Assembly: GCA_018645325.1 (NCBI GenBank)
Contig: JABGOU010000040.1
Span: 1-34,752, forward strand
Source of the DNA: Desulfobacula sp.
GTDB taxonomy: Bacteria > Desulfobacterota > Desulfobacteria > Desulfobacterales > Desulfobacteraceae
Direction: 5' to 3'
DNA length: 34,752 nt
Position 1 is the stretch's first letter, and each line of letters begins with the position of its first letter. Below are positions 10,291-27,659 of this stretch, piece after piece. Below the pieces are notes generated by a model. That model was given only the letters and a program-made list of their open reading frames with translations, was not told the DNA's origin and did not search any database. A program made the translations under genes and the position numbers.

Positions 10291-12027
10291 ATGACAAGCA
10301 AAAAATCCATCATTATATTCTGGGCACTATTTTTAGTGCCCACCCTTGTTATAGCAAGTATTGCATTTAAACTTTTGTCCCACGAGCAGGAACGAATAAG
10401 TAAGTCAGCTCTTGATGCTTTGAGTGAAAGGGCAACCATTATTTCTGAAACTATTCATCTTACCATACAAGCTGTACAGGATAATCTTACCCAGTCTTTA
10501 CTTGTTCTTGATCAAGGCAAACTCAAAAAAAAACTGATTGAATGGGAAGAGACAAATCCTTTAGTCCGCAATGTGTTTGTTTATAAAAAAGATAAGAATC
10601 TTGAATATCCTTTAAGGGGGCTTGAATCCACCCTTGAACAAAGACTTTTTATTGCAAGATATGAGGCGTTGTTTTCCGGGAGGACAAAATTTGATTTTAA
10701 TGAAAATCCTCTAAGGGATGAACCAAAGATCAGGGGTGTGGCAGATTCTTATTCAAGCTCAGGCAAAAATGATTCCCTTACAAAACAACAGACACTATCA
10801 TCCCGCCAAAAGCTTGTTGCACTGTCAAGGGTGAAACAAAAAGCACCTGATTTAGACGGGCAGACCATTTTTTCTGAGGCAAAAGAGAAACAATATATAA
10901 AACGATCAGGATGGATTCAATGGTTCAGTGAGAACAACTTGTATATTTTGGGCTGGGTACAAAAATTTAAGAATGGACCTGTATACGGGGTTGAACTTGA
11001 ATTAATGACTTTGCTGTCAAGGCTTGTGGTTGATTTTCCAAAATTATCGGAAAAAGGGGCAGCCCTGGTGCTTATGGATGGAAACGGCAATTTCATGCAT
11101 CAGTCTGGAAAATGGGCAGCAGACCCTGAAGACAGACCTGTGGATGCAATTTCCATATCAAGTCTGCTTCCCCATTGGCAGATTGCTGTTTTTGTTGAGG
11201 ATAAAGGGTTTGGGACAACCAGGGGATTTTTATATGTCACGGCAATTCTGTTAGGCGTTTTTATTGTTGCGATTATTTCAGGCGGGCTCCTTTTGACCCG
11301 TCTGACCCTTCAAAACATGAAAGATGCAAGACAGAAAACCTCATTTGTTTCATCTGTATCCCATGAACTGAAAACACCCCTGACCAGCATTCGGATGTAT
11401 GCAGAACTTTTATTGTCTAAAAGAATAAAGGATGAAAATAAAATACAAACCTATCTTTCGGTAATTGTCAATGAAAGCGGTCGCCTGACAAGGCTTATCA
11501 ATAATGTGCTTGATTTTGGCAAGCTTGAACAGGGTAAAAAAACATATCAGATGTCTAATTTTGAACTGGATCAATTTTTGTTAGAGATTATTAAAGCCCA
11601 CAGCATAAGAATTGAGAATCAGGATCTTGAAATTATCACTCAGATCGAACAGGGTGAACAGGGAAAGTATCTTGTAAGAACAGACAAAGATGCCATAGAA
11701 CAGGTGGTATTGAACCTGCTGGACAATGCATTAAAATATGCGGGGAAAGGAAAATTCATCAAGTTTGTTTTAAAAAAAGAGCATTATACTATTCTTTTAA
11801 AAATTTGTGATGATGGGCCGGGTATTCCAAACACACAGCAAGAGTTGATTTTTGAAAAATTTCACAGGGTGGATCATTCTTTAACATCTAAACAACCGGG
11901 GTCAGGGTTAGGATTGAGTATTGCCAGACAGATTTTAAGGGATCTTAAAGGCGATCTTTTTTTTGAACATAGGCCTGGAAACGGCAGTTGCTTTACTGCA
12001 AGGATAAAACATGATGACTCAGATTAA
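10291..12027 (+). CDS. membrane sensor histidine kinase
   Basis: A 578-residue kinase. An N-terminal membrane helix (about 7-28) is followed by a large extracytoplasmic sensor region (about 30-310) of no recognised family. A second helix follows (about 312-335, YVTAILLGVFIVAIISGGLLL). No clear HAMP domain is visible between it and the HisKA helix, where the phosphoacceptor is His358 in SSVSHELKTPLTS. The ATPase has the N box (NLLDNALKYAG), G1 (DDGPGIP) and G2 (GSGLGLSIARQI). It overlaps the downstream response regulator by 17 bases, as expected for cognate partners. It starts 25 bases after the VWA frame. The TTAAGG ribosome-site candidate is unusually close to the ATG, so the exact start is less certain. 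The signal sensed is unknown. Confidence 0.9.
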   Translation: MTSKKSIIIFWALFLVPTLVIASIAFKLLSHEQERISKSALDALSERATIISETIHLTIQAVQDNLTQSLLVLDQGKLKKKLIEWEETNPLVRNVFVYKKDKNLEYPLRGLESTLEQRLFIARYEALFSGRTKFDFNENPLRDEPKIRGVADSYSSSGKNDSLTKQQTLSSRQKLVALSRVKQKAPDLDGQTIFSEAKEKQYIKRSGWIQWFSENNLYILGWVQKFKNGPVYGVELELMTLLSRLVVDFPKLSEKGAALVLMDGNGNFMHQSGKWAADPEDRPVDAISISSLLPHWQIAVFVEDKGFGTTRGFLYVTAILLGVFIVAIISGGLLLTRLTLQNMKDARQKTSFVSSVSHELKTPLTSIRMYAELLLSKRIKDENKIQTYLSVIVNESGRLTRLINNVLDFGKLEQGKKTYQMSNFELDQFLLEIIKAHSIRIENQDLEIITQIEQGEQGKYLVRTDKDAIEQVVLNLLDNALKYAGKGKFIKFVLKKEHYTILLKICDDGPGIPNTQQELIFEKFHRVDHSLTSKQPGSGLGLSIARQILRDLKGDLFFEHRPGNGSCFTARIKHDDSD

Positions 12028-12715
12028 AGTTCTTGTTGCAGAAGATGATACGAATATTCGGATGGGACTTGTGGACACCCTTGAAAGCGAAGGCTATGGG
12101 GTAAGCCAGGCCAAAGATGGTAAAATGGCCATGCAATTGTTTGACAAAGATTGTTTTGATCTGGTTCTTTTGGATGTCATGATGCCTGAAAAAAGCGGAT
12201 ATGATGTGTGCAGGGATATCCGGGCAACCAATGAAGATATTCCCATCATTATGCTGACGGCTAAAGTTGAGGAAATCGACAAGGTTGTGGGGCTCAAACT
12301 CGGTGCAGACGATTATATGACTAAACCCTTTGGTATCCATGAGCTTTTGGCAAGGATAAGTGCTGTGCTTCGCAGATCAAAAAGGGAAAAAAATAAAGAT
12401 AAAGCAATAGTTGACCAACCTTTCATGTTTGGTGAATTTGAGGTTAATCCTAAAACCTATAAAATAAACAAAGAAAAAGCTAGTATTGATATTTCAGAAA
12501 GAGAACTCAAATTGATCTGCCATTTTCACGTCCATCCCGGTGAAGTTTTGAGCCGGGATAATATTTTGAACGCCATATGGGGGATAGATTATCTTGGCAC
12601 AACAAGAACCCTTGACCAGCATATTGCCCAGCTTCGAAAAAAAATAGAGATGGATCCTTCCAACCCCATGCTTATCACCACCATTCACGGAGTGGGATAC
12701 AGATACGAAGCCTGA
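12011..12715 (+). CDS. OmpR/PhoB-family response regulator
   Basis: A 234-residue transcription factor and partner of the kinase just upstream. The receiver domain (1-120) has the acidic pair in VAEDDTN, the phosphoacceptor Asp55 (LLDVMMPEKSG) and the conserved Thr and Lys (MLTAK; YMTKPFG). The C-terminal winged helix (about 135-234) shows the ISERELKLICHFHVHPGEVLSR and TTIHGVGYRYEA signatures of Trans_reg_C. The start overlaps the kinase end, and the second ATG three bases later is equally possible. Targets are unknown; autoregulation of the VWA-kinase-regulator unit is a reasonable guess. A weak hairpin with a T-run follows at 12731. Confidence 0.92.
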   Translation: MMTQIKVLVAEDDTNIRMGLVDTLESEGYGVSQAKDGKMAMQLFDKDCFDLVLLDVMMPEKSGYDVCRDIRATNEDIPIIMLTAKVEEIDKVVGLKLGADDYMTKPFGIHELLARISAVLRRSKREKNKDKAIVDQPFMFGEFEVNPKTYKINKEKASIDISERELKLICHFHVHPGEVLSRDNILNAIWGIDYLGTTRTLDQHIAQLRKKIEMDPSNPMLITTIHGVGYRYEA

Positions 12716-13030: not shown

Positions 13031-14422
13031 TCAGCGCCTGAATTGAGACATATCAAAATCCAGGCGTTTGATGATTTTTTGAATGGAAGCCCGTTCAAGC
13101 CCACTTATTCTTGAGGTTTTTGAAATGTTCCCCCTGGTGTGTTCAAAAAGATGGGTAAGATAATTTTTTGAAAAAATATCCAATACTTCCTTTTTTGCGT
13201 CTTTGTAAAGGGAAAGTCCTTTAGGGAGAGGCGTTTTATCAAGTTTGCCTTCCACAAGATTGATCAGGGCCGGATCAATCTTTTTTCCGTTTGAGAAAAC
13301 TGCCAGACGACGAACATAATTTAATAATTCCCGTACATTTCCCGGCCAGGTCTGTCTTGTAAGATATGCCAGGGCAAAGGGATCTATCTCCATCGGTTCC
13401 ATGCCCATTTCTCCACAGGTTTTCAAAATAAACTCCTGAACCAGCATGGGGATGTCATCTTTTCTTTCCCGTAAAGGGGGAACTGTTATGGAGAGCACAT
13501 TGAGGCGGTAATAAAGGTCCTTTCGAAAGCTGCCGTCAAGTATTTTTTTCTCAAGTTCCTGGTTGGTCAGGGCAATGATCCTGACATCTGTTTTTTTTGA
13601 AATACTGGATCCTACAGGCTTGACCTCTTTGTCCTGAAGGAATTTTAAAAGTTTGGCCTGGATAGACGGGCTGATATCACCGATTTCATCCAGGATCAGG
13701 GTCCCTTTATCTGCTGTCATGAAAAAACCTTCTCTACTCCTTTCAGCACCTGTAAAAGCGCCTTTGACATGGCCAAAGAGCTCACTTTCCAGAAGCTGAT
13801 CAGGTATGGCCGGGCAGTTTAATGCGTGGCAGGATTCTTTTTCTCTTTTTGAAAGCTTGTGAATGGCCTGGGCAATATATTCTTTCCCGCTACCGGATTC
13901 TCCTGTGATCAATACGGTATAGTCAGTGACAGCGATTGCTGATATTTTTTCCTTGAGCTGTTTCATGATTTTGCTTTCCCAGTTAAGACCCTGGTCAGGG
14001 CTTAATGAGTTAATAATTTTCTGGAGCCGCTGGTTTTCGCTTGCAAGGGTATAATGTTCAATAGCCTTTTCCACGGTATGGTAGAGAGAATCTCTTTCCA
14101 CAGGTTTGGTAATAAAGTCCCATGCCCCCATTTTCAGGGCCTTGACAGCGTTTTCAATCGTGGCATGTCCTGTAATCATGATCACGCAGAGGTAGGGATT
14201 AATTTTTATCCCTTTTAAAAGTAGCTCATGTCCGGACATGCCCGGCATGCGAAGATCGGAAAGCATTACGCCGATTTTATTTTGTTCCAATATTTTAACA
14301 GCACTTTGACCGGATAATTCACCTATGATGTCCATGCTTGTGAATTTTTTTTTAAGATTCCTGATGATGCCTTTGAGAAAATCCTCATCATCATCAACAA
14401 CCAATATGGAAAAGTCTTTCAT
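13031..14422 (-). CDS. NtrC-family sigma-54-dependent response regulator
   Basis: A 463-residue enhancer-binding activator. The receiver (1-120) has the acidic DDDED cluster and phosphoacceptor Asp56 ([11 protein letters not shown]). The AAA+ domain has Walker A GESGSGKE (174-181) and the sigma-54 contact loop GAFTGA (221-226), followed by the Walker B segment [10 protein letters not shown]. The C-terminal Fis-type helix-turn-helix is [20 protein letters not shown]. It sits 14 bases downstream of the haem-motif kinase on the same strand, so the pair is almost certainly cognate. The nearest sigma-54 promoter, at 17036 before the YeiH-like operon, is the obvious target. Both GAFTGA and the receiver Asp are intact, so it should be an active, phosphorylation-controlled activator. 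Confidence 0.94.
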
Positions 14423-14436
14423 TTTACGTCCTTGTT

Positions 14437-16857
14437 TTAGCTGTCTTCCGGTTTAACCACAGGAAAGAAAATGTTGAAAACAGTGGTTTCATCACTTTCA
14501 ACCTCGATACGCCCGCCAATTTCATTGATAAACCCATATACAACGGAAAGCCCTAAACCGGTTCCTTTTCCCACCTCTTTTGTGGTGTAAAAAGGATCAA
14601 ATATCTGTGAAATGATGTGGTCGGAAATGCCCGGGCCATTGTCTTCAATGCAGAGCAGAACCTGATCTTTTTTTGCAAATTGTGTGGAAATATTTATGGT
14701 TCCGCCGGAATCCTGGATGGCGTCAAATGCATTGAGCCAAAGATTGGTCAGGATCTGTTCTAAAATGGCTGCATCACATTTGATATCGGGAAGGTTATCT
14801 TTTAGATAAGAATTCACTGATATCCTTTTTGATGCAGACTGAGTCTTAAAGACCTCAATTGCGTTAAGGATAACTTTGTTGATACTGCATTTGCCTGAGA
14901 TTACCTGTTTGGGTCTTGAAAGACTTAAAAGGTCCCGGACAATAGTCTGTACGTTGCGGGTATGTTTTAAAATAATATCGATGTCACTTAAGGTTTCAGG
15001 ATCTTTCACCGTGTCTTTAACAAGATCCGTATAACACTGAATCACACCCAAAGGATTGTTGATCTCATGGGCAATCCCGGCAGCCATTTTCCCAATGGAA
15101 CTTAAGCGTTCTGTCTGCTGCATACGTTCCATCATTTGCTTTTCCATGGTGATGTCGCGGGCAGAAAGAATAATTCTAAGGTCTGCCTGATCCCTTTTGG
15201 GAAGGGGATACAGATCAATCCTGAAATATCTTTCATCAGGCGTTTTTATTTCCTGGCTCATGGGTTTTTCTTTATCAATAACCTGGTTCAGGATATTAAA
15301 GGAGTTGTTTGAAGTATTCTCCAGACAAAGGAATTTTTTCAATTCCTTTTCCTGGTTTGCCCGTTTCTTTTTTGAAAGAATACTTTTGCTTGCTTTGTTT
15401 GCGATGATGATATGGCCGTTGGAATCAATCAAAAGCAATGGGTCTGAAATCCCTTCAAAAATTGACTGGAGCATATCGTTTTGAAACCGGATATTTGAAA
15501 ATGCCTGAATATTTTCAATAAGAATTCCGATCTGCTGACCCAGAGCCAATAGAATGGCTGGGTCCAGATCATCCAGTAAAGGTATTTTCGACCAGAAGAT
15601 ACACAGAATTCCCCAATGGCTCTCCGAGGATTTTATGGGAATATATAATTGATTATCCCGGATGAGGATTTCGTCCAACCATAAAAGTTCCTTGATATCA
15701 GCAGCCAGTTTTGAGATATCCTTGTCCGGCTTCCATGAATAGGCATTTTCGGAAATAACCGTACAATGATAAATCACCTGGTCTGCATCAAAGCGCTTTC
15801 CTACGCTTTCAAGGACACCTGATATCAGATGTTTGGTGTCAATGGAGCCTGTGAATCCGGAGAGCAGCTTTACAAAAAGCCGGACGTCTCCCAGGTGTTT
15901 TTTTGCCTTTAATTTGAGTTCCTTTGTCCGATCTTCCACTTTTAATTCAAGATTCTGGGCATAATCCTCAAGCTCATTTCGGGCATCGGAAAGACAAATT
16001 GCCAGTTCGTCTACTCCTTCAATAAGACCTTCAATTTCATCCTTTTGCCCCAGCCTGTCGATAATGCCCTGTTCCTGTCGGCCTGAAAACCGGGTTTTAA
16101 AAATTAAGGTGAGGGTGTGAAGATTTTTCATGACCAGTCGATCAAAAAAAAGGCTTATAAGGATTGCAAAAAACATGATACCCAAAAAATACAGGCTCAG
16201 ATACTGAAGGGTGACTTCTTTTACAGGTTGCTGAATCAAATCCAGGGGAAATCCTGCAACCACAATACCGCCAACATCACCCACAGTGTAGTTAAATCCG
16301 TTTTTATCCCCGTATATCTCTTTGAGTTCTTTGGGCGCATCTTTGGGATCTCCATGGCATTGCATACAGGATTCACTGAATGTTACGGGTCTTGCCACCA
16401 GGTGATATTCCTTATCGCCAACCATGGTGTTGTCTTCCCATGTGTCCAGGGTCTTGTCCTTGTTGAAAATTAGAATAAGGCTTTTTTCAAATGCATTGGG
16501 AGTTGACTCAGAATTCCTGGGTTTAATGGAAACCCTTCTATAGTGAAACTCAGAGGTTTCATTCTCGTCCAGAAGAGTCATCACCTGTCTGGAGATATAT
16601 GAAGAAGACATGGCCTTTAGCACAAACCGGTCTTTGGGAAGTATTTTGAACATTTCAGGTCTCAATACAGTCCTGACATAGTCTTGTACGGCACTGGACT
16701 GGGACAACAGCATTCTTGAACGGTCACTGATTTCCGACTTCATGATATGGTTTAAGTGAAAGTATATGATAATGCTGATACAGATACCCAGGGCCACTGC
16801 AAACAATAAAAGTCCTGTGATGAATTTAAATCTTAAACTGATTATGGGTAAAGTCAT
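14437..16857 (-). CDS. sensor histidine kinase with DUF3365 haem-binding sensor, GAF and PAS domains
   Basis: An 806-residue membrane kinase. A first helix (about 10-33) leads into a periplasmic DUF3365 (Tll0287-like) domain (about 55-210) with Cys164-x2-Cys167-His168 (SCMQCHGD), a c-type haem attachment motif. A second helix follows (about 219-239), then a HAMP-like linker and coiled coil (to about 325), a GAF-like domain (about 330-460) and a PAS domain (about 465-580, GISDPLLLIDSNGHIII). The kinase core has phosphoacceptor His597 (AAGIAHEINNPLG) and an ATPase with CIEDNGPGIS and GKGTGLGLSVVYGF. Signal input is probably redox state or a haem ligand, inferred from the family. It is divergent from the YeiH-like operon and cotranscribed with the NtrC-type regulator. 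No sigma-54 site is seen for its own promoter. Confidence 0.9.
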   Translation of the reverse strand: MTLPIISLRFKFITGLLLFAVALGICISIIIYFHLNHIMKSEISDRSRMLLSQSSAVQDYVRTVLRPEMFKILPKDRFVLKAMSSSYISRQVMTLLDENETSEFHYRRVSIKPRNSESTPNAFEKSLILIFNKDKTLDTWEDNTMVGDKEYHLVARPVTFSESCMQCHGDPKDAPKELKEIYGDKNGFNYTVGDVGGIVVAGFPLDLIQQPVKEVTLQYLSLYFLGIMFFAILISLFFDRLVMKNLHTLTLIFKTRFSGRQEQGIIDRLGQKDEIEGLIEGVDELAICLSDARNELEDYAQNLELKVEDRTKELKLKAKKHLGDVRLFVKLLSGFTGSIDTKHLISGVLESVGKRFDADQVIYHCTVISENAYSWKPDKDISKLAADIKELLWLDEILIRDNQLYIPIKSSESHWGILCIFWSKIPLLDDLDPAILLALGQQIGILIENIQAFSNIRFQNDMLQSIFEGISDPLLLIDSNGHIIIANKASKSILSKKKRANQEKELKKFLCLENTSNNSFNILNQVIDKEKPMSQEIKTPDERYFRIDLYPLPKRDQADLRIILSARDITMEKQMMERMQQTERLSSIGKMAAGIAHEINNPLGVIQCYTDLVKDTVKDPETLSDIDIILKHTRNVQTIVRDLLSLSRPKQVISGKCSINKVILNAIEVFKTQSASKRISVNSYLKDNLPDIKCDAAILEQILTNLWLNAFDAIQDSGGTINISTQFAKKDQVLLCIEDNGPGISDHIISQIFDPFYTTKEVGKGTGLGLSVVYGFINEIGGRIEVESDETTVFNIFFPVVKPEDS

Positions 16858-16952
16858 TTCTTATTCTCCATTTAACATCTTGAATATTAAAATAAAGAAT
16901 CCACAGATTAATTGCAAGGAATCTTGTTGAAACCGGATACTTTAGCATACAC

Positions 16953-16976
16953 AACTGGAAACTCAAGTTTACAGTT
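16953..16976. promoter_or_regulatory. nested dyad, likely upstream activator site for the NtrC-type regulator
   Basis: The half-sites AACTG-n-AAACT and AGTTT-n-CAGTT form a 24-base dyad in which 20 of 24 positions are symmetric. Its centre is about 72 bases upstream of the -24 element at 17036, a typical distance for a sigma-54 enhancer. A further inverted pair, GTTGAA (16926-16931) and TTCAAC (16975-16980), overlaps it. It lies between the divergent kinase and transporter genes and could serve both. Confidence 0.65.
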
Positions 16977-17035
16977 CAACTGTTTGTTATTTTATAAAAG
17001 CCTTTGATATCAATGGTTTTAAAAATATAAGCGCC

Positions 17036-17051
17036 TGGCACAGGGTTTGCT
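17036..17051 (+). promoter_or_regulatory. sigma-54 (-24/-12) promoter of the YeiH-like operon
   Basis: TGGCAC (17036-17041), five bases, then TTGCT (17047-17051) matches the sigma-54 consensus exactly at the -24 GG and -12 GC, with the correct spacing. Transcription should start near 17062, leaving a leader of about 60 bases before the ATG at 17123. An NtrC-type activator gene is encoded about 2.6 kb away on the other strand. Confidence 0.85.
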
Positions 17052-17122
17052 ATAACCTTTGAAGTTAACTGAATATTTTTATAACGTATTTTTTAATAAA
17101 CCATAAAAAAGAGAGGAAGATT

Positions 17123-18880
17123 ATGGCTGAAGGTAATGGAATTGTAGTTGACCAGGGTAAGTGGGAATGGTCTGAAATGTGGAAAAAAGAAGACTGGTGG
17201 GCGATCTGGATTGGTTTTTTTCTCCTTGTTGCAGCCATGTTTGTTTATTTTCCCCATTCAGGAGAAATGAAGGAAATTATTAATAAGGCTGAAGCTAAAT
17301 ATGGCGAGGCGGCAAACCGGACCTCTGCCATAAAAACAATCGCATGGCACAAATTGTCAGATGCCAAGAAAAAAGCTGAGGCAAGAAAGGTTTCAACGGG
17401 TAAGTGGCTGTCAAGTTTTGCGGCTAAACCGCACAAATGGACCGACAACCCCATGGATGCTTTTTTTATGAGTAAGGAAAAAGCCGCTGCCAAGGCTGAC
17501 AAAGCCAAGGCAAAGTATGCAAAGAAAAAAGCTGTTGAGGATGCTGCTTTTGCTGTGGCCCTTGCTTCAGAGAAGCTTGCAGAGGCAGCAGGGTTTAAGG
17601 ATGAGACTTTAAATGCTTCAGCATCAGCTGCCATTGACAAATGGCGTGATGCAAAGCTTGCAGCTTCTTCGGCTAAAAAGAAAACCAAGGTTAAAGCCTA
17701 TAACCAGATTGGTAAACTCATCGGGCTGGGTGTGTTTTTCTGTCTTCTTTTTGGTATCCCCATGAGTATAATGGGAGTTCCGTTTAAGAAATTTGCTCTG
17801 GGCTTTGTTTTTGTCTATGCAGTGGTTGTCCTTGCATGGTTCTTCAGTTATCAGTCTACCATGAAACATTATGGTATTGGATATGCGGCCTGGGCAATTT
17901 TTCTTGGCATGCTGATCAGTAATACCGTTGGAACCCCTAAATGGGCCATGCCTGCAGTCCAGACCGAATATTATATTAAAACGGGTCTGGTGCTTTTAGG
18001 AGCGAAAATCCTGTTTGAAAAAATTATTACCATTGGTACGGCTGGTATTTTTGTGGCCTGGGTTGTGACCCCGACAGTTTGGCTGATTACCTATTGGTTT
18101 GGCCAGAAAATAATCAACATGCCTTCCAAACGTCTGAATGCGGTTATCTGTTCTGACATGTCGGTTTGCGGTGTGTCTGCTGCCATTGCAGCAGCTTCTG
18201 CCTGCCGGGCCAAAAAAGAGGAATTGACCCTTGCTGTTGGTCTTTCCCTCGTTTTTACAGCCATCATGATGATTGTGATGCCTGCAGTAATCAAAGGAAC
18301 TTTCCCAGTTGATAAGCAGATGATCCTGGGTGGTGCATGGATGGGTGGAACCATTGATGCCTCAGGAGCTGTTGCTGCTGCCGGTGCATTTTTAGGTGAA
18401 AAAGCCCTTTATGTGGCAGCCACCATTAAAATGATCCAGAATGTTCTCATTGGTGTGATTGCCTTTTTTGTTGCCCTTTATTTTACAACAAAAGTGGAAA
18501 CAGAAGAAACCGGTGCAAAGGTAGGTCTGACTGAAATCTGGTTCAGGTTCCCCAAATTTGTCCTGGGGTTTATGGCGGCATCCATTATATTTTCCCTGAT
18601 CTATTCAGGATTTAATTCAGAGTTGGACGGACTTGGACGGGCCATGATTGACAAGGGTACCATCAAGGGTGGGTCCGACCTTTTCAGGGGATGGTTTTTT
18701 TCCCTGTCCTTTGTCAGCATCGGGCTTGCAACCAATTTTCGTGAACTAAAACATCATTTCAAAGGTGGCAAACCTTTGATCCTCTATGTGTTTGGTCAGT
18801 CCTTAAATCTGGTTCTGACACTGGTTATGGCATATATCATGTTTTACGTGGTATTCCCTGATCTTACAGCAACCATTTAA
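17123..18880 (+). CDS. YeiH-family putative anion/sulfite exporter with a long Ala/Lys-rich N-terminal insert
   Basis: A 585-residue inner-membrane protein. The C-terminal two-thirds (about 196-585) is the PF03601 (YeiH/TauZ) transporter core with about ten helices. Its family motifs include WAIFLGMLISNT, TGLVLLGAKILFEKI, SDMSVCGVSAAIAAASA and GGAWMGGTIDASGAVAAAGA. YeiH has been linked to sulfite tolerance in enterobacteria, and relatives sit in sulfonate pathways, so export of sulfite or a related anion is a reasonable guess. Unusually, a first helix (about 25-44) is followed by about 150 soluble residues rich in Ala and Lys (45-195), predicted helical or coiled-coil, before the core. The ribosome site GAGAGGAAG is good. 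It is the first gene behind the sigma-54 promoter at 17036, with two small membrane-protein genes after it. Confidence 0.85.
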   Translation: MAEGNGIVVDQGKWEWSEMWKKEDWWAIWIGFFLLVAAMFVYFPHSGEMKEIINKAEAKYGEAANRTSAIKTIAWHKLSDAKKKAEARKVSTGKWLSSFAAKPHKWTDNPMDAFFMSKEKAAAKADKAKAKYAKKKAVEDAAFAVALASEKLAEAAGFKDETLNASASAAIDKWRDAKLAASSAKKKTKVKAYNQIGKLIGLGVFFCLLFGIPMSIMGVPFKKFALGFVFVYAVVVLAWFFSYQSTMKHYGIGYAAWAIFLGMLISNTVGTPKWAMPAVQTEYYIKTGLVLLGAKILFEKIITIGTAGIFVAWVVTPTVWLITYWFGQKIINMPSKRLNAVICSDMSVCGVSAAIAAASACRAKKEELTLAVGLSLVFTAIMMIVMPAVIKGTFPVDKQMILGGAWMGGTIDASGAVAAAGAFLGEKALYVAATIKMIQNVLIGVIAFFVALYFTTKVETEETGAKVGLTEIWFRFPKFVLGFMAASIIFSLIYSGFNSELDGLGRAMIDKGTIKGGSDLFRGWFFSLSFVSIGLATNFRELKHHFKGGKPLILYVFGQSLNLVLTLVMAYIMFYVVFPDLTATI

Positions 18881-18934
18881 TTGGTTTAGACCAATCCTGT
18901 ACCCGGTCCATGTTTGTCTTGTTCCGGGTGCAGG
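18880..18934 (+). promoter_or_regulatory. two tandem hairpins between transporter and next gene
   Basis: The first hairpin is ATTGGT/ACCAAT with a four-base loop (18880-18895), directly after the transporter stop. The second pairs CCTGTACCCGG (18896-18906) with CCGGGTGCAGG (18924-18934), eleven pairs including one G-U, around a 17-base loop. No T-run follows. Likely roles are mRNA 3'-end protection or partial attenuation, giving more transporter than downstream products. Confidence 0.55.
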
Positions 18935-18968
18935 AACCTGTTAGAATAATCCACAAGGGAGCGTTAAA

Positions 18969-19310
18969 ATGTCCAGTGAAGCAGTAACAAATGACTCAAG
19001 ACCAAAAGCATGGGGAAAACTCATATTTTTTTCTTTTCTCATCTGGGTCTTTGGATGGATAGTGGGACCTTATATAGAAAACAATATTTCCACCTATAAA
19101 CAGATTGCCCAGGTTGTGGAAGAACGAGATATTGATTCGGCAGCTTATATGTATATGGATTCTGTGGGATCTTATGATGGCGAATACTATCTTAGTGATT
19201 CGTTTAAGCATTCCAAACGCAATGATTATGGAATGACCAAAGCATTTTTTGCCGGTATTCTTTCCTGTTTTATGATCCTATGGTTTGGCTGGCGATTTAT
19301 GATGAACTAA
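18969..19310 (+). CDS. small two-helix membrane protein, unknown function
   Basis: A 113-residue protein not recognised as any family. It has an N-terminal helix (about 17-37, LIFFSFLIWVFGWIVGPYI) and a C-terminal helix (about 91-111, AFFAGILSCFMILWFGWRF). Between them is an acidic, Tyr-rich soluble loop (EERDIDSAAYMYMDSVGSYDGEYYLSDSF). With both ends cytoplasmic, the loop would face the periplasm. The ribosome site AAGGGAG is strong. It lies 88 bases after the YeiH-like transporter, downstream of the double hairpin, and before another membrane-associated gene, so it is probably an accessory subunit or a folding partner of the transporter. No enzymatic motif is visible. Confidence 0.7.
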   Translation: MSSEAVTNDSRPKAWGKLIFFSFLIWVFGWIVGPYIENNISTYKQIAQVVEERDIDSAAYMYMDSVGSYDGEYYLSDSFKHSKRNDYGMTKAFFAGILSCFMILWFGWRFMMN

Positions 19311-19332
19311 GACAGGTTAACCCTTTTAAAAA

Positions 19333-19371
19333 AAAGTACCCTTAGTAAAGAAAGTACCATTGGTAAAGAAA
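19333..19371 (+). repeat. tandem 18-base repeat at a gene start
   Basis: Two copies of an 18-base unit (19333-19350 and 19351-19368), each beginning AAAGTACC and ending GTAAAG with three internal mismatches. A partial third copy, AAAGTGC, runs into the ATG at 19377. It occupies the place where a ribosome site would be expected. Copy-number change here could tune translation of the next gene. Confidence 0.6.
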
Positions 19372-19376
19372 GTGCA

Positions 19377-19964
19377 ATGAATATGGATAACAAAGAATTA
19401 ATAATCGATCACGAAAAAAAATTTGCATCAAAACTTGCGGGCCATGTTATTGTTAAACCCAAACTGAGTGCATGGATGATTTTTATTCCGTTTATTTTTA
19501 TCTTTTATTTTCAAGATTTTTCAAAATATAAAAAACAGCGGAAAGAATTTTTGGGAAATTGGTTCCTCTCCAGGAAAAAGGCTATGAATGAGGCTGAAGA
19601 AGCCATTGACGAGGGCAGAAAACCAAACACGCAGGATATCGCAGATCAGGCGAATCTTAAAGCCAAGGTGACGGGCAAATATGAAAGATTTTTGAAAGTG
19701 ATGGCAACGCATTATACCCTTTTGCTGAATGCCAAAGGGGAGTCTTACCAAGCTCTTGTCAGGTCTGCCTATAGAGGCCGCCAGGGAGAGTTTCTGTTTT
19801 TTATCAACCAGCTGGCCGAAGCTGAAAACCAATTGAATAAGGCTCTTGCTCCACAACTTAAAAAAGAAGCGGATGGTGTGTCGGCAACCATTAAAAAAAT
19901 TGAAAAGGGATCTGCAAAGCTTCGTCAGGAAGAATTAAAAGAAATTTTTTCATCAATTATTTAA
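19377..19964 (+). CDS. membrane-anchored helical protein, unknown function
   Basis: A 195-residue protein with one hydrophobic stretch (about 30-47, LSAWMIFIPFIFIFYFQDF) flanked by Lys-rich sequence. The rest is a long, charged, mostly helical domain (about 50-195) with coiled-coil character (AEAENQLNKALAPQLKKEADGVSATIKKIEKG). I do not recognise the family. It is the third gene downstream of the sigma-54 promoter at 17036, after the YeiH-like transporter and a two-helix protein. Its helical domain recalls the Ala/Lys-rich insert of the transporter, so a physical partnership is conceivable but unproven. The ATG at 19377 has no good ribosome site; a second ATG lies six bases on. No strong terminator follows its stop. 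Confidence 0.7.
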   Translation: MNMDNKELIIDHEKKFASKLAGHVIVKPKLSAWMIFIPFIFIFYFQDFSKYKKQRKEFLGNWFLSRKKAMNEAEEAIDEGRKPNTQDIADQANLKAKVTGKYERFLKVMATHYTLLLNAKGESYQALVRSAYRGRQGEFLFFINQLAEAENQLNKALAPQLKKEADGVSATIKKIEKGSAKLRQEELKEIFSSII

Positions 19965-20290: not shown

Positions 20291-20578
20291 ATGTCTTCAA
20301 ATAAATTCTTAAAGCACGAAGGGCCATGGTCAGATGCGAACGATCCTCTGATGTGTTCTGATACAGGTAGTTGGCGAACTAAAAGGCCGGTTGTTGACAA
20401 AGAAAAATGTATTTTTTGCGGATTTTGCGCACTTTATTGTCCCATCCAGGTGATGGAGATGGTTGAAACTTCGCATTTTTTGCCGGATCTGGGATTTTGT
20501 AAGGGGTGCGGGATCTGCGCCAAAGAATGTCCCAAAGATGCAATTTCCATGAAGCCGGAGGGGGATTTTCAAAAATGA
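20291..20578 (+). CDS. 2-oxoacid:ferredoxin oxidoreductase delta subunit (PadF-like, two 4Fe-4S clusters)
   Basis: A 95-residue ferredoxin-type subunit with two complete CxxCxxCxxxCP sites, CIFCGFCALYCP and CKGCGICAKECP. This is the layout of the delta (PorD/KorD) subunit of 2-oxoacid oxidoreductases. It passes electrons from the thiamine centre of the beta subunit to an external ferredoxin. It is the first gene of a tightly packed run: its TGA overlaps the ATG of the alpha subunit. The ribosome site AAGGAGG is strong. Context with a PadBCD-like enzyme suggests phenylglyoxylate as substrate (PadF equivalent). On its own sequence it could equally be a 2-oxoglutarate or pyruvate oxidoreductase subunit. 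Confidence 0.88.
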   Translation: MSSNKFLKHEGPWSDANDPLMCSDTGSWRTKRPVVDKEKCIFCGFCALYCPIQVMEMVETSHFLPDLGFCKGCGICAKECPKDAISMKPEGDFQK

Positions 20579-21837
20579 ATACAAAAGCAAAAGCTAAAAC
20601 AGGTTCACAGATTAAGGTTATAACAGGGAATGCTGCAGCAGCCATTGGCGCAAAACTTGCCCGCCCGGATGTGGTGGCAGCCTATCCCATTACTCCCCAG
20701 ACAGAAATAATTGAGCAGATTTCCAAATTTCATGCAAACGGTGAAATGGATTGCGAGCTGATTACAGTTGAGGGTGAAAACTCTGCAATGAATGCTGTTA
20801 TGGCCGCTTCTCTTGCCGGAGGCAGAGTCTTTACCGCCTCTTCCTCCTGGGGTCTTGTTTTTATGTATGATGCGATTCTTGCAACGGCCGGTGCCAGAGC
20901 ACCCGTGGTCATGGTGAATGTCAATCGTGAAACGCCGGGAATCATCGCCGTATCCTGCGGGCAGCAGGACATGATCTCCACAAGGGATGCCGGTTGGATT
21001 TTTCTTATTGCCGAAACCTGCCAGGAAGTGCTTGATATAGTTGTCCAGGCTTATCGCCTGGCGGAAGATTATGATATCCAGGTACCGGTTATGGTTCATT
21101 ATGACGGGTTCTATCTTTCTTATCTTTCTGAGGTTGTAGATGTTCCTTTACAAGAAGATGTAGACAAATTTTTATCTGTTTTAAAGGATCAGCCTGAAAG
21201 AACGAAACTTGTACCCGGTGGAAGACTGGGATGTGGTACCCATGGAATTCTTGGAGGGTATCTTGAACTTCGTCATAAACATATGTCTGCCATGGAAAGA
21301 TCTAAAGCCAAGTTTGAAGAGATCGATAAAGAATTTGAAGCGATTTTTGGCCGCAGCCATGGCGGTCAGATTGAAAAATATAGAATGGATGATGCAGATG
21401 TGGTTCTTGTGGGTTCCGGGTCCATGTGCGGCACCATTAAGGCTGTTATTGATGAGAAAAGAGATTCAGGTGTCAAAGTGGGCCTTTTAAAGATAAGAAT
21501 GTACAGACCCTTTCCAAGTGAAGTAATGGTTGAGGTGCTTAAGGGCAAAAAAGCCATTGGTGTGGTGGACAGGAGTCTGTGTTTTGGATTTAAGGGTGGT
21601 CCTATGTATACTGAGTTAAAAGCCTTTGAAACACAACTTGGCGGTTCAAAAATGATAAGTTTCATTGATGGCATTGCAAATACAGATATCACACAAGCCA
21701 ATGTAGAGCAGATGATTGATACAACCTGTGATCTTGCTGCAGGCAAAGACGTTCGCGAAGTCACATGGGTTTCATATCCTGAAGCCAATGAACCTGATTC
21801 TGAAAAACCTGATTCTGAAAAACGGGGAGGGCTTTAA
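20575..21837 (+). CDS. 2-oxoacid:ferredoxin oxidoreductase alpha subunit, probable phenylglyoxylate type (PadG-like)
   Basis: A 420-residue alpha subunit combining the pyrimidine-binding (POR_N) and transketolase C-like domains. The opening GNAAAAIGAKLARPDVVAAYPITPQTEIIEQIS has the YPITPQTE motif, and LITVEGENSAMNAVMAA carries the catalytic-site Glu. The C-terminal part contains VVLVGSGSMCGTIKAVID and VGLLKIRMYRPFP. The start at 20575 is set by the ATGA overlap with the delta subunit and a GGAGGGG ribosome site. The expected reaction is CoA-dependent oxidative decarboxylation of a 2-oxoacid, here probably phenylglyoxylate to benzoyl-CoA plus CO2, inferred from the PadBCD-like neighbours. A 15-base tandem repeat (21793-21822) adds a second PDSEK near the C-terminus. 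Confidence 0.88.
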   Translation: MNTKAKAKTGSQIKVITGNAAAAIGAKLARPDVVAAYPITPQTEIIEQISKFHANGEMDCELITVEGENSAMNAVMAASLAGGRVFTASSSWGLVFMYDAILATAGARAPVVMVNVNRETPGIIAVSCGQQDMISTRDAGWIFLIAETCQEVLDIVVQAYRLAEDYDIQVPVMVHYDGFYLSYLSEVVDVPLQEDVDKFLSVLKDQPERTKLVPGGRLGCGTHGILGGYLELRHKHMSAMERSKAKFEEIDKEFEAIFGRSHGGQIEKYRMDDADVVLVGSGSMCGTIKAVIDEKRDSGVKVGLLKIRMYRPFPSEVMVEVLKGKKAIGVVDRSLCFGFKGGPMYTELKAFETQLGGSKMISFIDGIANTDITQANVEQMIDTTCDLAAGKDVREVTWVSYPEANEPDSEKPDSEKRGGL

Positions 21838-21838
21838 A

Positions 21839-22798
21839 ATGACAGAAAAAAAGCAAGGCAAACTGACAAAAGTACTGGATTATCTTAAACATGAAGACCC
21901 TTTTTCAAAAGGCGTGGCATTCTGTCCGGGTTGCGGTCTTGAGCTTTTATTGAGATTTATCCCACAGGTTTTGGGTAATGATATCGTAATTACGGGTACC
22001 CCGTCCTGTTCAGCTCCTGTACTCCTTGGACAGAACAATCAATCCTGGCATACCCTTTCATATTTTGGAACGCTTATGACCGGGGCTGCTGCAAATGCCA
22101 CAGGTCTTGCCAGATATTACAGGAAAGCCGGTATCAAGAATACAGTGGTTTGTTTCAACGGAGATGGTACTGCTGCTGATATCGGATTTGGTAATCTGTC
22201 CGGTGCTGCCGAAAGAAATGAACCCTTTATTTATATTTGTTATGACAATGAAGGATACATGAATACGGGTATCCAGAAAAGCGGAACCACACCATATGGT
22301 GCAAGTACGACCACAACTCCTTTAGGATCTGCTTCCAAAGGAAAAAACTTGAGAAGGATGAACCTGGCTCTGAAAATGGCCATGCACAAGATTCCCTATG
22401 CAGCCACTGCAACCCTGAGCGACATGGGGGACCTTGCTAAAAAATTATTAAAAGCAAAGGAAGCCAAAGAAAGAGGGTTTGCCTTTCTTCATGTTTTTGC
22501 TCCCTGTACCACGGGATGGGGCTATGCCCCGGAAAATACCATTGAAGTGTGCCGAAGGGCTGTAAAAACAAACTACTTCCCGCTTTGGGAAGCTGTGAAC
22601 GGCAAAATCAGGATGACCAAAACCGTTAAAAAACCCAAACCTGTATCAACCTATACAAAGTTAATAAAAAAATTCGCCCATTTGAATGAAGCAGATCTTC
22701 AGATTCTTCAGGATGATATTGATTACGAATACTGCATGTTGGGCGGGTTGAGCGCACTGGAAGGTGAATGTCAGCTTCCCGTGTCTTCAGAAGATTAA
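21839..22798 (+). CDS. 2-oxoacid:ferredoxin oxidoreductase beta subunit, thiamine-binding (PadI-like)
   Basis: A 319-residue beta subunit. The thiamine diphosphate motif is GDG at 108-110 extending to the Asn of DNEGYMNTG (about 136-143). Cluster-ligand cysteines are Cys29 and Cys32 (FCPGCG), Cys57 and probably Cys223, matching the single 4Fe-4S cluster of POR beta subunits. The start at 21839 follows the alpha stop by one base, with GGGGAGG as ribosome site. A longer upstream frame overlapping alpha is not needed. Substrate assignment to phenylglyoxylate rests on the downstream molybdoenzyme. No NADH-linking flavoprotein subunit (PadH of denitrifiers) is present, so ferredoxin is the likely acceptor. 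Confidence 0.88.
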   Translation: MTEKKQGKLTKVLDYLKHEDPFSKGVAFCPGCGLELLLRFIPQVLGNDIVITGTPSCSAPVLLGQNNQSWHTLSYFGTLMTGAAANATGLARYYRKAGIKNTVVCFNGDGTAADIGFGNLSGAAERNEPFIYICYDNEGYMNTGIQKSGTTPYGASTTTTPLGSASKGKNLRRMNLALKMAMHKIPYAATATLSDMGDLAKKLLKAKEAKERGFAFLHVFAPCTTGWGYAPENTIEVCRRAVKTNYFPLWEAVNGKIRMTKTVKKPKPVSTYTKLIKKFAHLNEADLQILQDDIDYEYCMLGGLSALEGECQLPVSSED

Positions 22799-22812
22799 AG
22801 GAGGAAGCGATA

Positions 22813-23361
22813 ATGAGTGAAGTCAGATTCCATGGCAGAGGGGGGCAGGGTGTTGTTACGACATCTAAAATTCTTGCCAATGCTTTTGCCAGAACCGGAC
22901 GATTCGGCGCCAGTTTTCCCATGTTTGGTTTTGAAAGAAGGGGCGCGCCTGTCACAGCCTTTGGTAGATTTTCGGATAAGCCGGTTAGAGAGAAAACACA
23001 GATCTATAATCCAGATATTATCGTGGTTCTTGATCCCACTCAGAGAAATTCAGAAGCTGTGTTTCAAGGATTGCTCCCAGATGGTATGATGCTGTTGAAT
23101 GATTCGGATATTACTATAAATGTCTCCCATGAGAATCTTAAAAAGTTGGGGATTATTAACGCCAATAAAATTGCCATGGAAGAAATTGGTCTTTCCATAC
23201 CCAATACGGTTATTGTTGGTGCATTTGCAAAAATGTCGGGATTGTTGGAAATTGAACCCTGTTGCGACGCGTTGCAGGATTATTTTTCAGGAAAAAAGCT
23301 TGATGCCAATATTGTGTGCGCAAAAAGAGGGTTTGAAGAGATTAAATTGTTTGATTTATAA
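22813..23361 (+). CDS. 2-oxoacid:ferredoxin oxidoreductase gamma subunit (PadE-like)
   Basis: A 182-residue gamma (catalytic domain III) subunit. It starts with VRFHGRGGQGVVTTSKILA, the signature of POR gamma subunits, and continues SFPMFGFERRGAPVTAFGR, which contributes to CoA and interface contacts. The start at 22813 is fixed by AAGGAGG ending nine bases before it; the 14-base gap from the beta stop fits the operon. With delta, alpha and beta it completes a four-subunit enzyme. A 99-base gap with a seven-pair hairpin separates it from the PadC-like gene, dividing the operon into two halves. Confidence 0.9.
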   Translation: MSEVRFHGRGGQGVVTTSKILANAFARTGRFGASFPMFGFERRGAPVTAFGRFSDKPVREKTQIYNPDIIVVLDPTQRNSEAVFQGLLPDGMMLLNDSDITINVSHENLKKLGIINANKIAMEEIGLSIPNTVIVGAFAKMSGLLEIEPCCDALQDYFSGKKLDANIVCAKRGFEEIKLFDL

Positions 23362-23378
23362 TTATATGTGAGATGTGA

Positions 23379-23397
23379 AAACCAGAACCGCTGGTTT
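23379..23397 (+). promoter_or_regulatory. hairpin between the two halves of the operon
   Basis: AAACCAG (23379-23385) pairs with CTGGTTT (23391-23397) around a five-base loop. No T-run follows, so a processing or attenuation element is more likely than a full terminator. An AAAGGAG ribosome site for the next gene follows at about 23449. Confidence 0.4.
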
Positions 23398-23460
23398 GTC
23401 TCTTACCGATAAAAGCTCATATCTCAATAGTTTTATAAAATTATTAATAAAGGAGCTGTT

Positions 23461-24117
23461 ATGCCAAGATGGGGAATGGTAATCGACGTAAAAAGGTGTA
23501 TCGCTTGCTGGGGCTGCGCCATAGCATGTAAAGAGGAACATTTTCTTCCTCCGGGGGTATTCTTTAACAGGGTGCTTATTGGAGAGACGGGAAAATTTCC
23601 CACATCCAGCAAGATAATTTATCCTATCCTTTGCAATCATTGTTCTGATGCTGCCTGCGTGGAAGCATGTCCCACAGGAGCAACCTATGTCAGGGAAGAT
23701 GGTATTGTGGCAGTTGACGATGAAAAATGTGTCGGCTGCAGAGCCTGTCTTGTGAGTTGCCCATATCAGCAGAGAACATATTATGACCAAAAAGTAAAAG
23801 ACAGGGAATATTTCCCGGGTCAAGGTAAAACCGAGATGGAACTGATAGGTGAAAAATTATATCCATTCAAAGTGGGTACTGTGATTAAATGCAATTTTTG
23901 CAGTGAAAGACTTGAAGATGGTATGAAAAAGGGTCTAACACCGGGTAAAGACGAGGATGCTTCTCCTGCATGTGTTAATATTTGTCCGGTCAATGCAAGA
24001 ATCTTTGGTGATCTTGATGACCCAGACAGTGAAATTAATCGTCTGATCATGGAGAAAAAAGGTAAACAGCTTAGGAAAGAATTTGGTACTGAACCGGCAG
24101 TCTATTATATTGATTAA
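23461..24117 (+). CDS. padC: Fe-S electron-transfer subunit of the PadBCD-like molybdoenzyme
   Basis: A 218-residue DmsB/NrfC-type subunit with sixteen cysteines in four cluster sets: CIACWGCAIAC, CNHCSDAACVEACP, CVGCRACLVSCP and a split set CNFC...CVNICP. No signal peptide is present, so it should lie on the cytoplasmic side. It passes electrons between the molybdenum subunit and the membrane subunit. The calculated size, about 24 kDa, is near the 27 kDa reported for the Fe-S subunit of phenylacetyl-CoA:acceptor oxidoreductase of Thauera aromatica. It starts the second half of the operon and is followed after 15 bases by the catalytic gene. By sequence alone it could belong to a polysulfide or thiosulfate reductase-type complex. 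Confidence 0.8.
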   Translation: MPRWGMVIDVKRCIACWGCAIACKEEHFLPPGVFFNRVLIGETGKFPTSSKIIYPILCNHCSDAACVEACPTGATYVREDGIVAVDDEKCVGCRACLVSCPYQQRTYYDQKVKDREYFPGQGKTEMELIGEKLYPFKVGTVIKCNFCSERLEDGMKKGLTPGKDEDASPACVNICPVNARIFGDLDDPDSEINRLIMEKKGKQLRKEFGTEPAVYYID

Positions 24118-24132
24118 TAAACAGGGGGAGAT

Positions 24133-26739: not shown

Positions 26740-26753
26740 AGGAGGGATGCAAA

Positions 26754-27659
26754 ATGAGTAATAAAATTCATGAACTTGAACAAATAATGTTTCCTCCTGA
26801 TGGCAGTGGATTAAAACCCTATGAATGGATGGTAAATCCAACCCGTCAGAGGCAGTGGATTGATGATAAAGGACTATTTCTATGGCTGGCCTTTTTTTTC
26901 TCGGAAATCGGAGCAGGGCTTTATTTTGTATCACTTTTTTATGCATATAAGCTTGGATTGATCCTGGGCTGGCTGATTACACTGGTCCTGGGAGGTGTTA
27001 TTCATGTGCTGTATCTGGGCAATCCTTTGAGAGCCTGGAGAATGATTATGAAACCCAATACCTCTGAATTGTCCAGAGGGATATGGATAATTGGGGTCTT
27101 TGCAGCTTTAGGGCTTTTGCAGATTGTAACCAGCGGCGGATTTAATATGGTCTTCAGCACCATTATGGGGATTTTATGCCTTTTAATTATTTCCCATGGA
27201 TTTGCAACTATGAATGTTATCCGTGCCCTTCCTGCCTGGAGTTCAACAATGGTTCTGCCATTGTCCCTTATTTCAGGCGTATGGATAGGTCATCAGATTC
27301 TACAGTTCATGGTTTCTGTTTCAGGATCTGCAGCACTTGCCTCTGGAATGGAAGTCTGGGCAGAGGTATTTTTCTTTGCATACTTTTTGTGCATTGTGCT
27401 CTATGTCTGGGGAACCTGGCATAGTAATGAGATTGGAAAAGAATCCATTAAAATGCAGTTACGTGGAGACCTTTTAAAAATTTCTTTTATTGGCATTGGC
27501 TTACTTGCCATCACTGTACCGTTGATTCTCGCTCTGATCATGTGGGGTGGAGATACCAACAGCTTCTTGATCTTTTTAAGATTGGCCTGTGTGATTGCAG
27601 GAGACCTTGCACTTCGTTACGTTATCATGAAAAGTGCAGTGTATAAGCCGTTGATTTAG
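26754..27659 (+). CDS. padD: NrfD/DmsC-like membrane anchor of the PadBCD-like enzyme
   Basis: A 301-residue integral membrane protein with about eight helices. The first (about 41-60, FLWLAFFFSEIGAGLYFVS) carries the NrfD-type acidic pattern, and LGNPLRAWRMIMKPNTSELSRGIW is the loop typical of this family. It should anchor the Mo/Fe-S subunits and pass electrons to the quinone pool. The N-terminal 40 residues are soluble. It starts 14 bases after padB with AAAGGAGG as ribosome site and is the last gene before the strong terminator at 27763. At about 33 kDa it is somewhat larger than the 26 kDa subunit reported in Thauera. Its presence supports menaquinone as acceptor for the first oxidation step. 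Confidence 0.78.
   Translation: MSNKIHELEQIMFPPDGSGLKPYEWMVNPTRQRQWIDDKGLFLWLAFFFSEIGAGLYFVSLFYAYKLGLILGWLITLVLGGVIHVLYLGNPLRAWRMIMKPNTSELSRGIWIIGVFAALGLLQIVTSGGFNMVFSTIMGILCLLIISHGFATMNVIRALPAWSSTMVLPLSLISGVWIGHQILQFMVSVSGSAALASGMEVWAEVFFFAYFLCIVLYVWGTWHSNEIGKESIKMQLRGDLLKISFIGIGLLAITVPLILALIMWGGDTNSFLIFLRLACVIAGDLALRYVIMKSAVYKPLI

Follow-up and report, generated by a model that had tools for sequence, protein, structure and literature searches.

A predicted haem-sensing two-component circuit linked to a PF03601 transporter operon in Desulfobacula and its relatives

The locus and related circuits

The stretch of DNA analyzed here (the window) comprises positions 1 to 34,752 of contig JABGOU010000040.1 of Desulfobacula sp., belonging to a 4.39 Mb assembly of 157 contigs that is 90.32% complete. 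It carries the genes of a sensor kinase and a response regulator, placed divergently from a three-gene operon that begins with a PF03601 transporter, and the 265-base gap between them contains a dyad and a promoter. The nearest named loci are those of Desulfobacula and other Desulfobacteraceae; among cultivated relatives, Desulfospira joergensenii DSM 10085 has the locus too (L077). A previous sequence-only reading had named a DUF3365 kinase with a CxxCH motif, a regulator with a GAFTGA motif, a -24/-12 site at 17036-17051 and a dyad at 16953-16976, and all of these were found where it had placed them; the regulator gene itself falls just outside the interval considered in that reading (14437-19964). 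The features of the locus are the following.

13031 to 14422, reverse strand: NtrC-type response regulator, with a receiver domain, an AAA+ domain carrying GAFTGA and a Fis-like helix-turn-helix
14437 to 16857, reverse strand: membrane sensor histidine kinase, with a predicted periplasmic c-haem Cache domain (PF11845), PAS, HisKA and HATPase domains
16354 to 16368, reverse strand: CMQCH haem-attachment motif, read from the sequence, kinase residues 164-168
16609 to 16611, reverse strand: Met83 of the kinase, candidate distal haem ligand from conservation and spacing
16953 to 16976: 24-base dyad, presumed binding site of the regulator (upstream activating sequence), with the core palindrome TGNNAACTNNAGTTNNCA at 16956-16973
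17036 to 17051, forward strand: predicted sigma-54 -24/-12 promoter, TGGCACAGGGTTTGCT
17123 to 18880, forward strand: PF03601 (PSE family) transporter, 585 residues
18969 to 19310, forward strand: small membrane protein, 113 residues
19377 to 19964, forward strand: NF038143 (HYxxLL) protein, 195 residues

A sigma-54 two-component circuit controlling a PSE transporter is already known. As described in the accessible parts of the papers concerned, the PSE transporters of D. vulgaris are sigma-54 dependent and of unknown substrate, and two of them are placed with lactate metabolism genes (PMC4641369). DVU0539 and DVU0946 are paralogous regulators that have a single tested motif in common and are conserved in other sulfate reducers, and DVU0539 binds several operons, lactate genes included (PMC3333781); its signal is stated as unknown (PMC6456213). 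Under molybdate, the kinase of the divergent cluster DVU0539-DVU0545 is needed and the PSE gene is detrimental (PMC10102598).

The window locus resembles DVU0540:DVU0539/DVU0542-DVU0545 and DVU0943-DVU0946 by its kinase and GAFTGA regulator pair, its sigma-54 promoter and its layout, divergent or operonic in D. vulgaris. There the shared motif was tested by electrophoretic mobility shift assay, and the PSE transporter DVU0543 is followed by a small one-helix protein, DVU0544 (PMC3333781, PMC4641369, PMC10102598). On the other hand, the text passages of these papers do not describe the D. vulgaris kinases as haem proteins and do not mention NF038143, the D. vulgaris cluster includes two universal-stress proteins, and the regulon takes in lactate genes. 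The earlier statement that no description of the full set was known is thus partly wrong, regulator-transporter circuits of this plan being on record for D. vulgaris, though with no haem sensor mentioned in those passages. Two named Desulfovibrionaceae loci in our set (L095, L106) show the order transporter, small gene, haem kinase, regulator.

What is added here, from sequence comparison, is the predicted haem sensor, the class-wide enhancer, the partner proteins and the apparent loyalty of the regulator to exchanged transporters. In the open-licence full-text literature (subscription papers and supplements being outside this scope), no paper joining a PF11845 kinase to a PSE transporter was found, and none on NF038143 in this role. 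In the literature read, a settled physiological role is lacking both for the PSE transporters of sulfate reducers and for the PF11845 haem kinases.

Linkage, palindrome and sigma-54 promoter across genomes

In 291 genomes of the class, scored with three candidates per genome, the kinase was found in 26 (E<=1e-80), the transporter in 82 (E<=1e-60) and both in 17. In 15 of these 17 genomes the two genes stand side by side on one contig; in one they are split at contig ends (G231), and in the other the kinase lies elsewhere (G240), although the palindrome and the promoter are kept at the transporter. Genome G217, whose transporter is 86% identical to that of the window, is without close kinase, palindrome and promoter alike. 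In a sample of 197 genomes of the phylum, PF03601 was present in 77, PF11845 in 108 and both in at least 49, and the two families lay within 8 kb of each other in at least 19 genomes from at least 14 families.

When 761 neighbouring open reading frames from 68 loci were clustered (same-contig duplicates having been dropped by name before loci were counted, as was also done for the sensor and small-protein motif counts below), the transporter was represented in 63 loci, NF038143 in 36, the small protein in 30 and the regulator in 25, and the kinases formed two clusters of 14 and 11 loci. The remaining clusters covered at most four loci, apart from one mixed cluster of 11. The layout varies, the kinase pair being divergent, upstream in the same direction, or downstream, and the transporter tree requires at least 11 changes of linkage on its well-supported branches. 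In plasmid records, only distant PF03601 relatives were found, none of which reached 80% coverage of the query. Some loci are near-copies of each other, which is what a chance neighbourhood or the common ancestry of a few strains could produce, but this explanation is barely credible in view of the three layouts, the repeated changes on the tree and the number of families. The conserved linkage of the kinase and regulator with the operon, set beforehand by the sequence-only reading as the point on which it could fail, was upheld in the genomes of relatives.

The regulator matched PF00072 (E 1.4e-22) and PF00158 (E 3e-65), both above cut-off, and GAFTGA is intact in its translation; the match to HTH_8 was weak (E 0.0046, 17.1 bits, under the cut-off of 22). 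In the window, TGGCACAGGGTTTGCT is the sole exact match of the -24/-12 scan pattern, and the dyad matches its own pattern once, with no match in the shuffles. The -24/-12 scan with up to two mismatches gave 17 matches against a chance mean of 15.95, hence no excess; being at chance level at two mismatches, the within-window scan was weak and was rejected as stand-alone evidence. Scans for sigma-70 promoters and terminators gave the same counts as shuffles. The centre of the dyad lies about 72 bp, and the core palindrome about 62 bp, 5' of the -24 element. The dyad and the promoter are considered more than chance because both recur at a fixed spacing across genomes. Another short palindrome, ACAGTTCAACTGT (16971-16983), shares bases with the 3' end of the dyad.

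Among 19 upstream regions taken from genomes that have an orthologous kinase, the palindrome was exact in 12, had one mismatch in 1 and two mismatches in 5, and was missing in 1; these regions were picked by hand, and two of the two-mismatch cases (L134 and L075) are on the same contig. Its distance to the -24 element was 61-64 bp in 15 of the 17 loci measured, the other two giving 51 and 76 bp. The 291 genomes were also searched without reference to genes for AACTNNAGTT with a -24/-12 site 52-80 bp further on. This blind search gave 16 hits in 16 genomes, compared with 2 for the reversed control pattern, and 13 of the hits were located directly before a PF03601 operon, in genomes that all have a close kinase. 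The remaining hits, in G097, G270 and G077, precede genes unrelated to PF03601, and these genomes lack a close kinase at E<=1e-80; G097 contains, on another contig, a distant haem kinase beside its own transporter. Palindrome and promoter together provide a ready genome-wide marker for the circuit.

As DVU0539 of D. vulgaris binds several operons, lactate genes among them (PMC3333781, in the part available), the regulator might serve a wide network in which the transporter is one among many targets. This is considered quite unlikely. In the window genome the exact sequence occurs at this locus only, which fits the description of the circuit as self-contained, and the 10 other places with one mismatch are fewer than the 21 of the control. 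The 26 kinase genomes contain 19 exact palindromes, of which 12 are at PF03601 operons and 7 elsewhere, compared with 8 for the control, and the blind search showed no other recurring target.

A sigma-54 site, defined by a score of at least 10 of 11 within 350 bp, was present at 28 of 29 loci having both kinase and regulator nearby and at 6 of 26 having neither (Fisher p 1.3e-8), the rate in shuffles being 24/3300. This comparison was made with 55 of the 64 tree rows, L116, the rows with only kinase or only regulator and the rows lacking the full upstream stretch being left out. A separate count with the same score threshold gave 24 of 25 linked and 6 of 28 unlinked loci. When phylogenetically independent pairs were taken from the tree of 64 transporters, 10 pairs were obtained and none was opposed (median p 0.008, range 0.004-0.06). 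The palindrome reached p<=0.01 in 9 of 19 distant linked regions and in 2 of 27 unlinked ones; the 19 include L032, with a kinase and no regulator nearby, and L092, with a regulator and no kinase nearby.

Some observations speak against this explanation. At L126 (G244) the kinase is orthologous, yet no palindrome is present within 3 mismatches; six unlinked loci carry sigma-54 sites, three of them from one genus; fewer than half of the distant linked loci, the 9 of 19 given above, reach the palindrome score; and such a kinase or regulator is missing from the vicinity of 36 of 75 transporter loci, the transporter therefore working elsewhere without them. All the same, the sequence comparisons leave it well supported that the transporter operon is part of a conserved unit together with the kinase, the regulator, the dyad and the sigma-54 promoter, and it is highly probable that the latter four drive the operon.

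Two groups of loci may be mentioned in addition. In L046, L058 and L064 (G025, G028 and G024, of one genus), a sigma-54 site precedes the transporter without palindrome or kinase nearby, hinting at a different regulator. In L131 (G064:C1:4569000-4585000), an in-frame stop lies in the transporter gene and the reading frame of the kinase is likewise interrupted, whereas palindrome and promoter are still present; judged by the sequence, both partners look broken in one genome.

The association was also followed where the transporter differs. Nine kinase genomes lack this transporter; in seven of them another PF03601 gene is present, which is beside the kinase in G198, G031, G092 and G268 and 13.5 kb away in G214; no PF03601 gene was found in G114 and G287. 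Kinases 60-74% identical to that of the window adjoin transporters of other branches, whose identity to the window transporter is 54% in G122, 59% in G244, 60% in G256 and 27% in G198, where the operon also encodes a 62-residue membrane protein and a DUF5395 protein. For the third transporter type, the palindrome is exact in G198 and has one mismatch in G031 and G092, and the sigma-54 sites face the operon. In G268 the palindrome has one mismatch and the promoter is weak (8 of 11). Ahead of the transporter operons of G214 and G009 there is a sigma-54 site but no palindrome within one mismatch; the fetched stretch of G271 contains neither palindrome nor sigma-54 site. As kinase and palindrome are kept beside exchanged transporters, the regulator appears to be loyal to the transporter function and not to one gene.

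The third PF03601 type is found beside a haem kinase at L116 (4050-6199), L120 (4587-6820) and L122 (4501-6771), its operon adding a one-helix protein of 62 to 78 residues and a small soluble protein (DUF5395 in L116). Furthermore, L067/L080 (G217) and L088 have a second PF03601 gene, about 27-30% identical, within about 5 kb of the first.

The predicted periplasmic haem sensor

The kinase matched PF11845 (Tll0287-like, DUF3365) with an E-value of 1.2e-36 (126.8 bits, cut-off 24.1), and the sensor domain is located between two hydrophobic segments, residues 3-39 and 215-244. In the 46 related sensor domains obtained from the fetched loci, CxxCH is always present. Because of this match and this conservation, a covalent c-type haem on the periplasmic domain is well supported. 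Arg90, Arg108 and Glu124 are likewise conserved in 46 of 46 sensors, and the position of Met83 is occupied by Met in 45. The cysteines of CxxCH are the only ones in the aligned periplasmic region of the window sensor, and an extra periplasmic Cys is found in just 2 of the 46 relatives.

From its conservation and position, Met83 is probably the sixth ligand of the haem. In GSU0935, the sixth ligand Met60 is displaced by NO (nitric oxide), CO (carbon monoxide) or oxidation, and 80 residues separate it from Cys140 (PMC8396549, in the part available); in the window kinase, Met83 and Cys164 are 81 residues apart. This comparison is our own argument from spacing and not from alignment, because the profile search of the PDB aligned Tll0287 only (E 3.1e-11, residues 97-199).

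According to the available part of a 2026 preprint, sCache_heme members of the signalling type are without axial Cys; tight binding of NO, and none of O2, was shown for one of these proteins (PMC12889525). By its sequence, the window sensor matches this Cys-lacking signalling type. Like the P. azotoformans protein, GSU0582 and GSU0935, it has PF11845 between membrane segments, a CxxCH motif and no distal Cys, with a conserved Met at a spacing like that of GSU0935; unlike these examples, it is fused to a PAS/HisKA kinase that has a dedicated sigma-54 target.

By analogy with these proteins, haem oxidation or NO could be the input of the circuit, a proposal for which we see the chances as evenly balanced. 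It may also be asked whether sulfite or sulfide is itself a ligand of the haem, in which case the circuit would sense its own substrate. Small sulfur ligands could be taken up by a His/Met c-haem whose sixth ligand is labile, and a sulfite-inducible control of yeiH exists in Salmonella (PMC12880088, in the part available); however, the members of the family tested in print respond to NO, CO or redox potential, and the passages available on them report no sulfur ligand (PMC12889525, PMC8396549). Direct sensing of a sulfur ligand is thus considered unlikely, and oxidation or NO is kept as the input in what follows.

The transporter, its partners and the possible output

The transporter scored 143.1 bits against PF03601 (cut-off 24.5) and 64.1 bits against TIGR00698, the model of the YeiH family (cut-off 232.6). 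The name of YeiH-type transporter given to it previously is consequently right for PF03601 membership and fails at the YeiH-family cut-off. All 32 aligned transporters match the TIGR00698 model, and nothing else of note. About 220 extra N-terminal residues comprise a hydrophobic helix, a helical region of about 150 residues and a second helix. This is reminiscent of the PSE_2 topology class of PF03601, which has extra N-terminal helices (PMC8396727); in the part of that paper available, PSE_2 is described with two added helices (11 in all), whereas in the window about 150 helical residues stand between the extra hydrophobic segments. The structure model (pLDDT 85) gave only weak carrier matches with Foldseek, the nearest being citrate and Na/H carriers (best E 0.028, TM about 0.2).

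The two partners had been presented as membrane proteins of unknown nature. The small protein has two hydrophobic segments with a conserved Asp-Ile-Asp...Tyr motif between them and no Pfam or NCBIfam match; a strict search for the motif found it in 26 of 69 loci, below expectation, the pattern being too narrow. The third gene product, in contrast, falls into NF038143 (E 2.2e-59, 200.8 bits, cut-off 50), a family that has a name but no known function, with HYTLLL at residues 112-117. It is helical, with one hydrophobic segment near residues 24-48, and its model (pLDDT 88.5) had no PDB fold match with E below 1 (best E 1.0). The family is present in 51 of the 291 class genomes.

From these elements the following mechanism can be proposed. 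When the haem is oxidized or takes up a gas such as NO, Met83 would be displaced and the output of the kinase would change, as suggested by the biochemistry of the family. The phosphorylated regulator would then bind TGNNAACTNNAGTTNNCA, which precedes the -24 element by about 62 bp, and drive sigma-54 RNA polymerase, so that the transporter, the small membrane protein and the NF038143 protein would be transcribed. Finally, the transporter would move a sulfur oxyanion, with sulfite as the best guess, out of the cytoplasm when NO or oxidants impair sulfite reduction. Efflux of sulfite or another oxyanion is put forward tentatively as the output, and the explanation taken whole, with its wiring, input and output, is the best that we can offer and could equally turn out right or wrong.

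The sulfite part comes from Salmonella, where, in the available part of the report, growth under sulfite stress requires YeiH, which confers sulfite resistance by an unknown mechanism (PMC12880088). In both cases a regulated transporter of the PF03601 superfamily is concerned; however, the Salmonella regulator YeiE is a one-component LysR protein that binds sulfite, and the window transporter differs from YeiH by its TIGR00698 score, its N-terminal extension and its two partner genes. Some results are at odds with sulfite efflux. YeiH, on which the analogy rests, is outside this subfamily by the NCBI cut-off; disruption of the PSE gene is beneficial to D. vulgaris under molybdate (PMC10102598, in the part available), which does not favour export; and the search for dsrA gave no match in the window genome, whose assembly is 90% complete. 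Sulfur stress as the signal, export as the direction and an anion exporter complex, as put forward by the sequence-only reading, are accordingly regarded as conjecture. Co-occurrence with dsrA was dropped as a test of the sulfite role, since 253 of the 291 class genomes have this gene (E<=1e-60) and it does not discriminate.

With the same wiring, the transporter might instead import sulfate or a molybdate-like oxyanion, or carry an organic anion, the haem serving to match uptake to redox conditions. DVU0543 and its neighbours are detrimental under molybdate, as if the carrier admitted the oxyanion (PMC10102598), two D. vulgaris PSE transporters are found with lactate metabolism genes (PMC4641369), and the best, though weak, matches of the predicted fold are to citrate and Na/H carriers. 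Against this stand the need for YeiH under sulfite stress in Salmonella (PMC12880088) and the fact that, in D. vulgaris, the kinase is needed and yet the carrier is harmful under molybdate, so that the direction is not settled by these data. As far as these partly seen sources go, import or organic anion transport is proposed with reserve.

Returning to sulfite efflux, a broader proposal would be that c-haem sensor, NtrC regulator and fixed enhancer form a modular escape valve by which Desulfobacterota dump sulfite. This appears rather unlikely. If true, NO or an oxidant in the periplasm, threatening sulfite reduction by siroheme, would switch on the PSE transporter complex, and the regulator would have stayed in place as at least three other PF03601 lineages took over from the transporter. 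The literature search found nothing joining nitrite or NO, sulfite accumulation and Desulfovibrio. Whatever the substrate, a regulator and a transporter tied by an enhancer would explain each other, the haem ligand narrowing the duty of the transporter and the substrate narrowing the signal; the D. vulgaris cluster is a tractable laboratory version of the system.

The surroundings of the locus include, 3' of the operon at 20291-27659 of the window, a set of 2-oxoacid:ferredoxin oxidoreductase genes, together with a set encoding a 4Fe-4S protein, a molybdopterin oxidoreductase and a membrane protein; similar genes are also found 3' of the operon in L044 and L072. The 2-oxoacid:ferredoxin oxidoreductase genes were rejected as members of the unit, as they adjoin the operon only in the window, L044 and L072 and are 10 kb off in L067. 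On the other side, just past the regulator gene, a second two-component pair, consisting of a kinase and an OmpR-type regulator, occupies positions 10291-12715.

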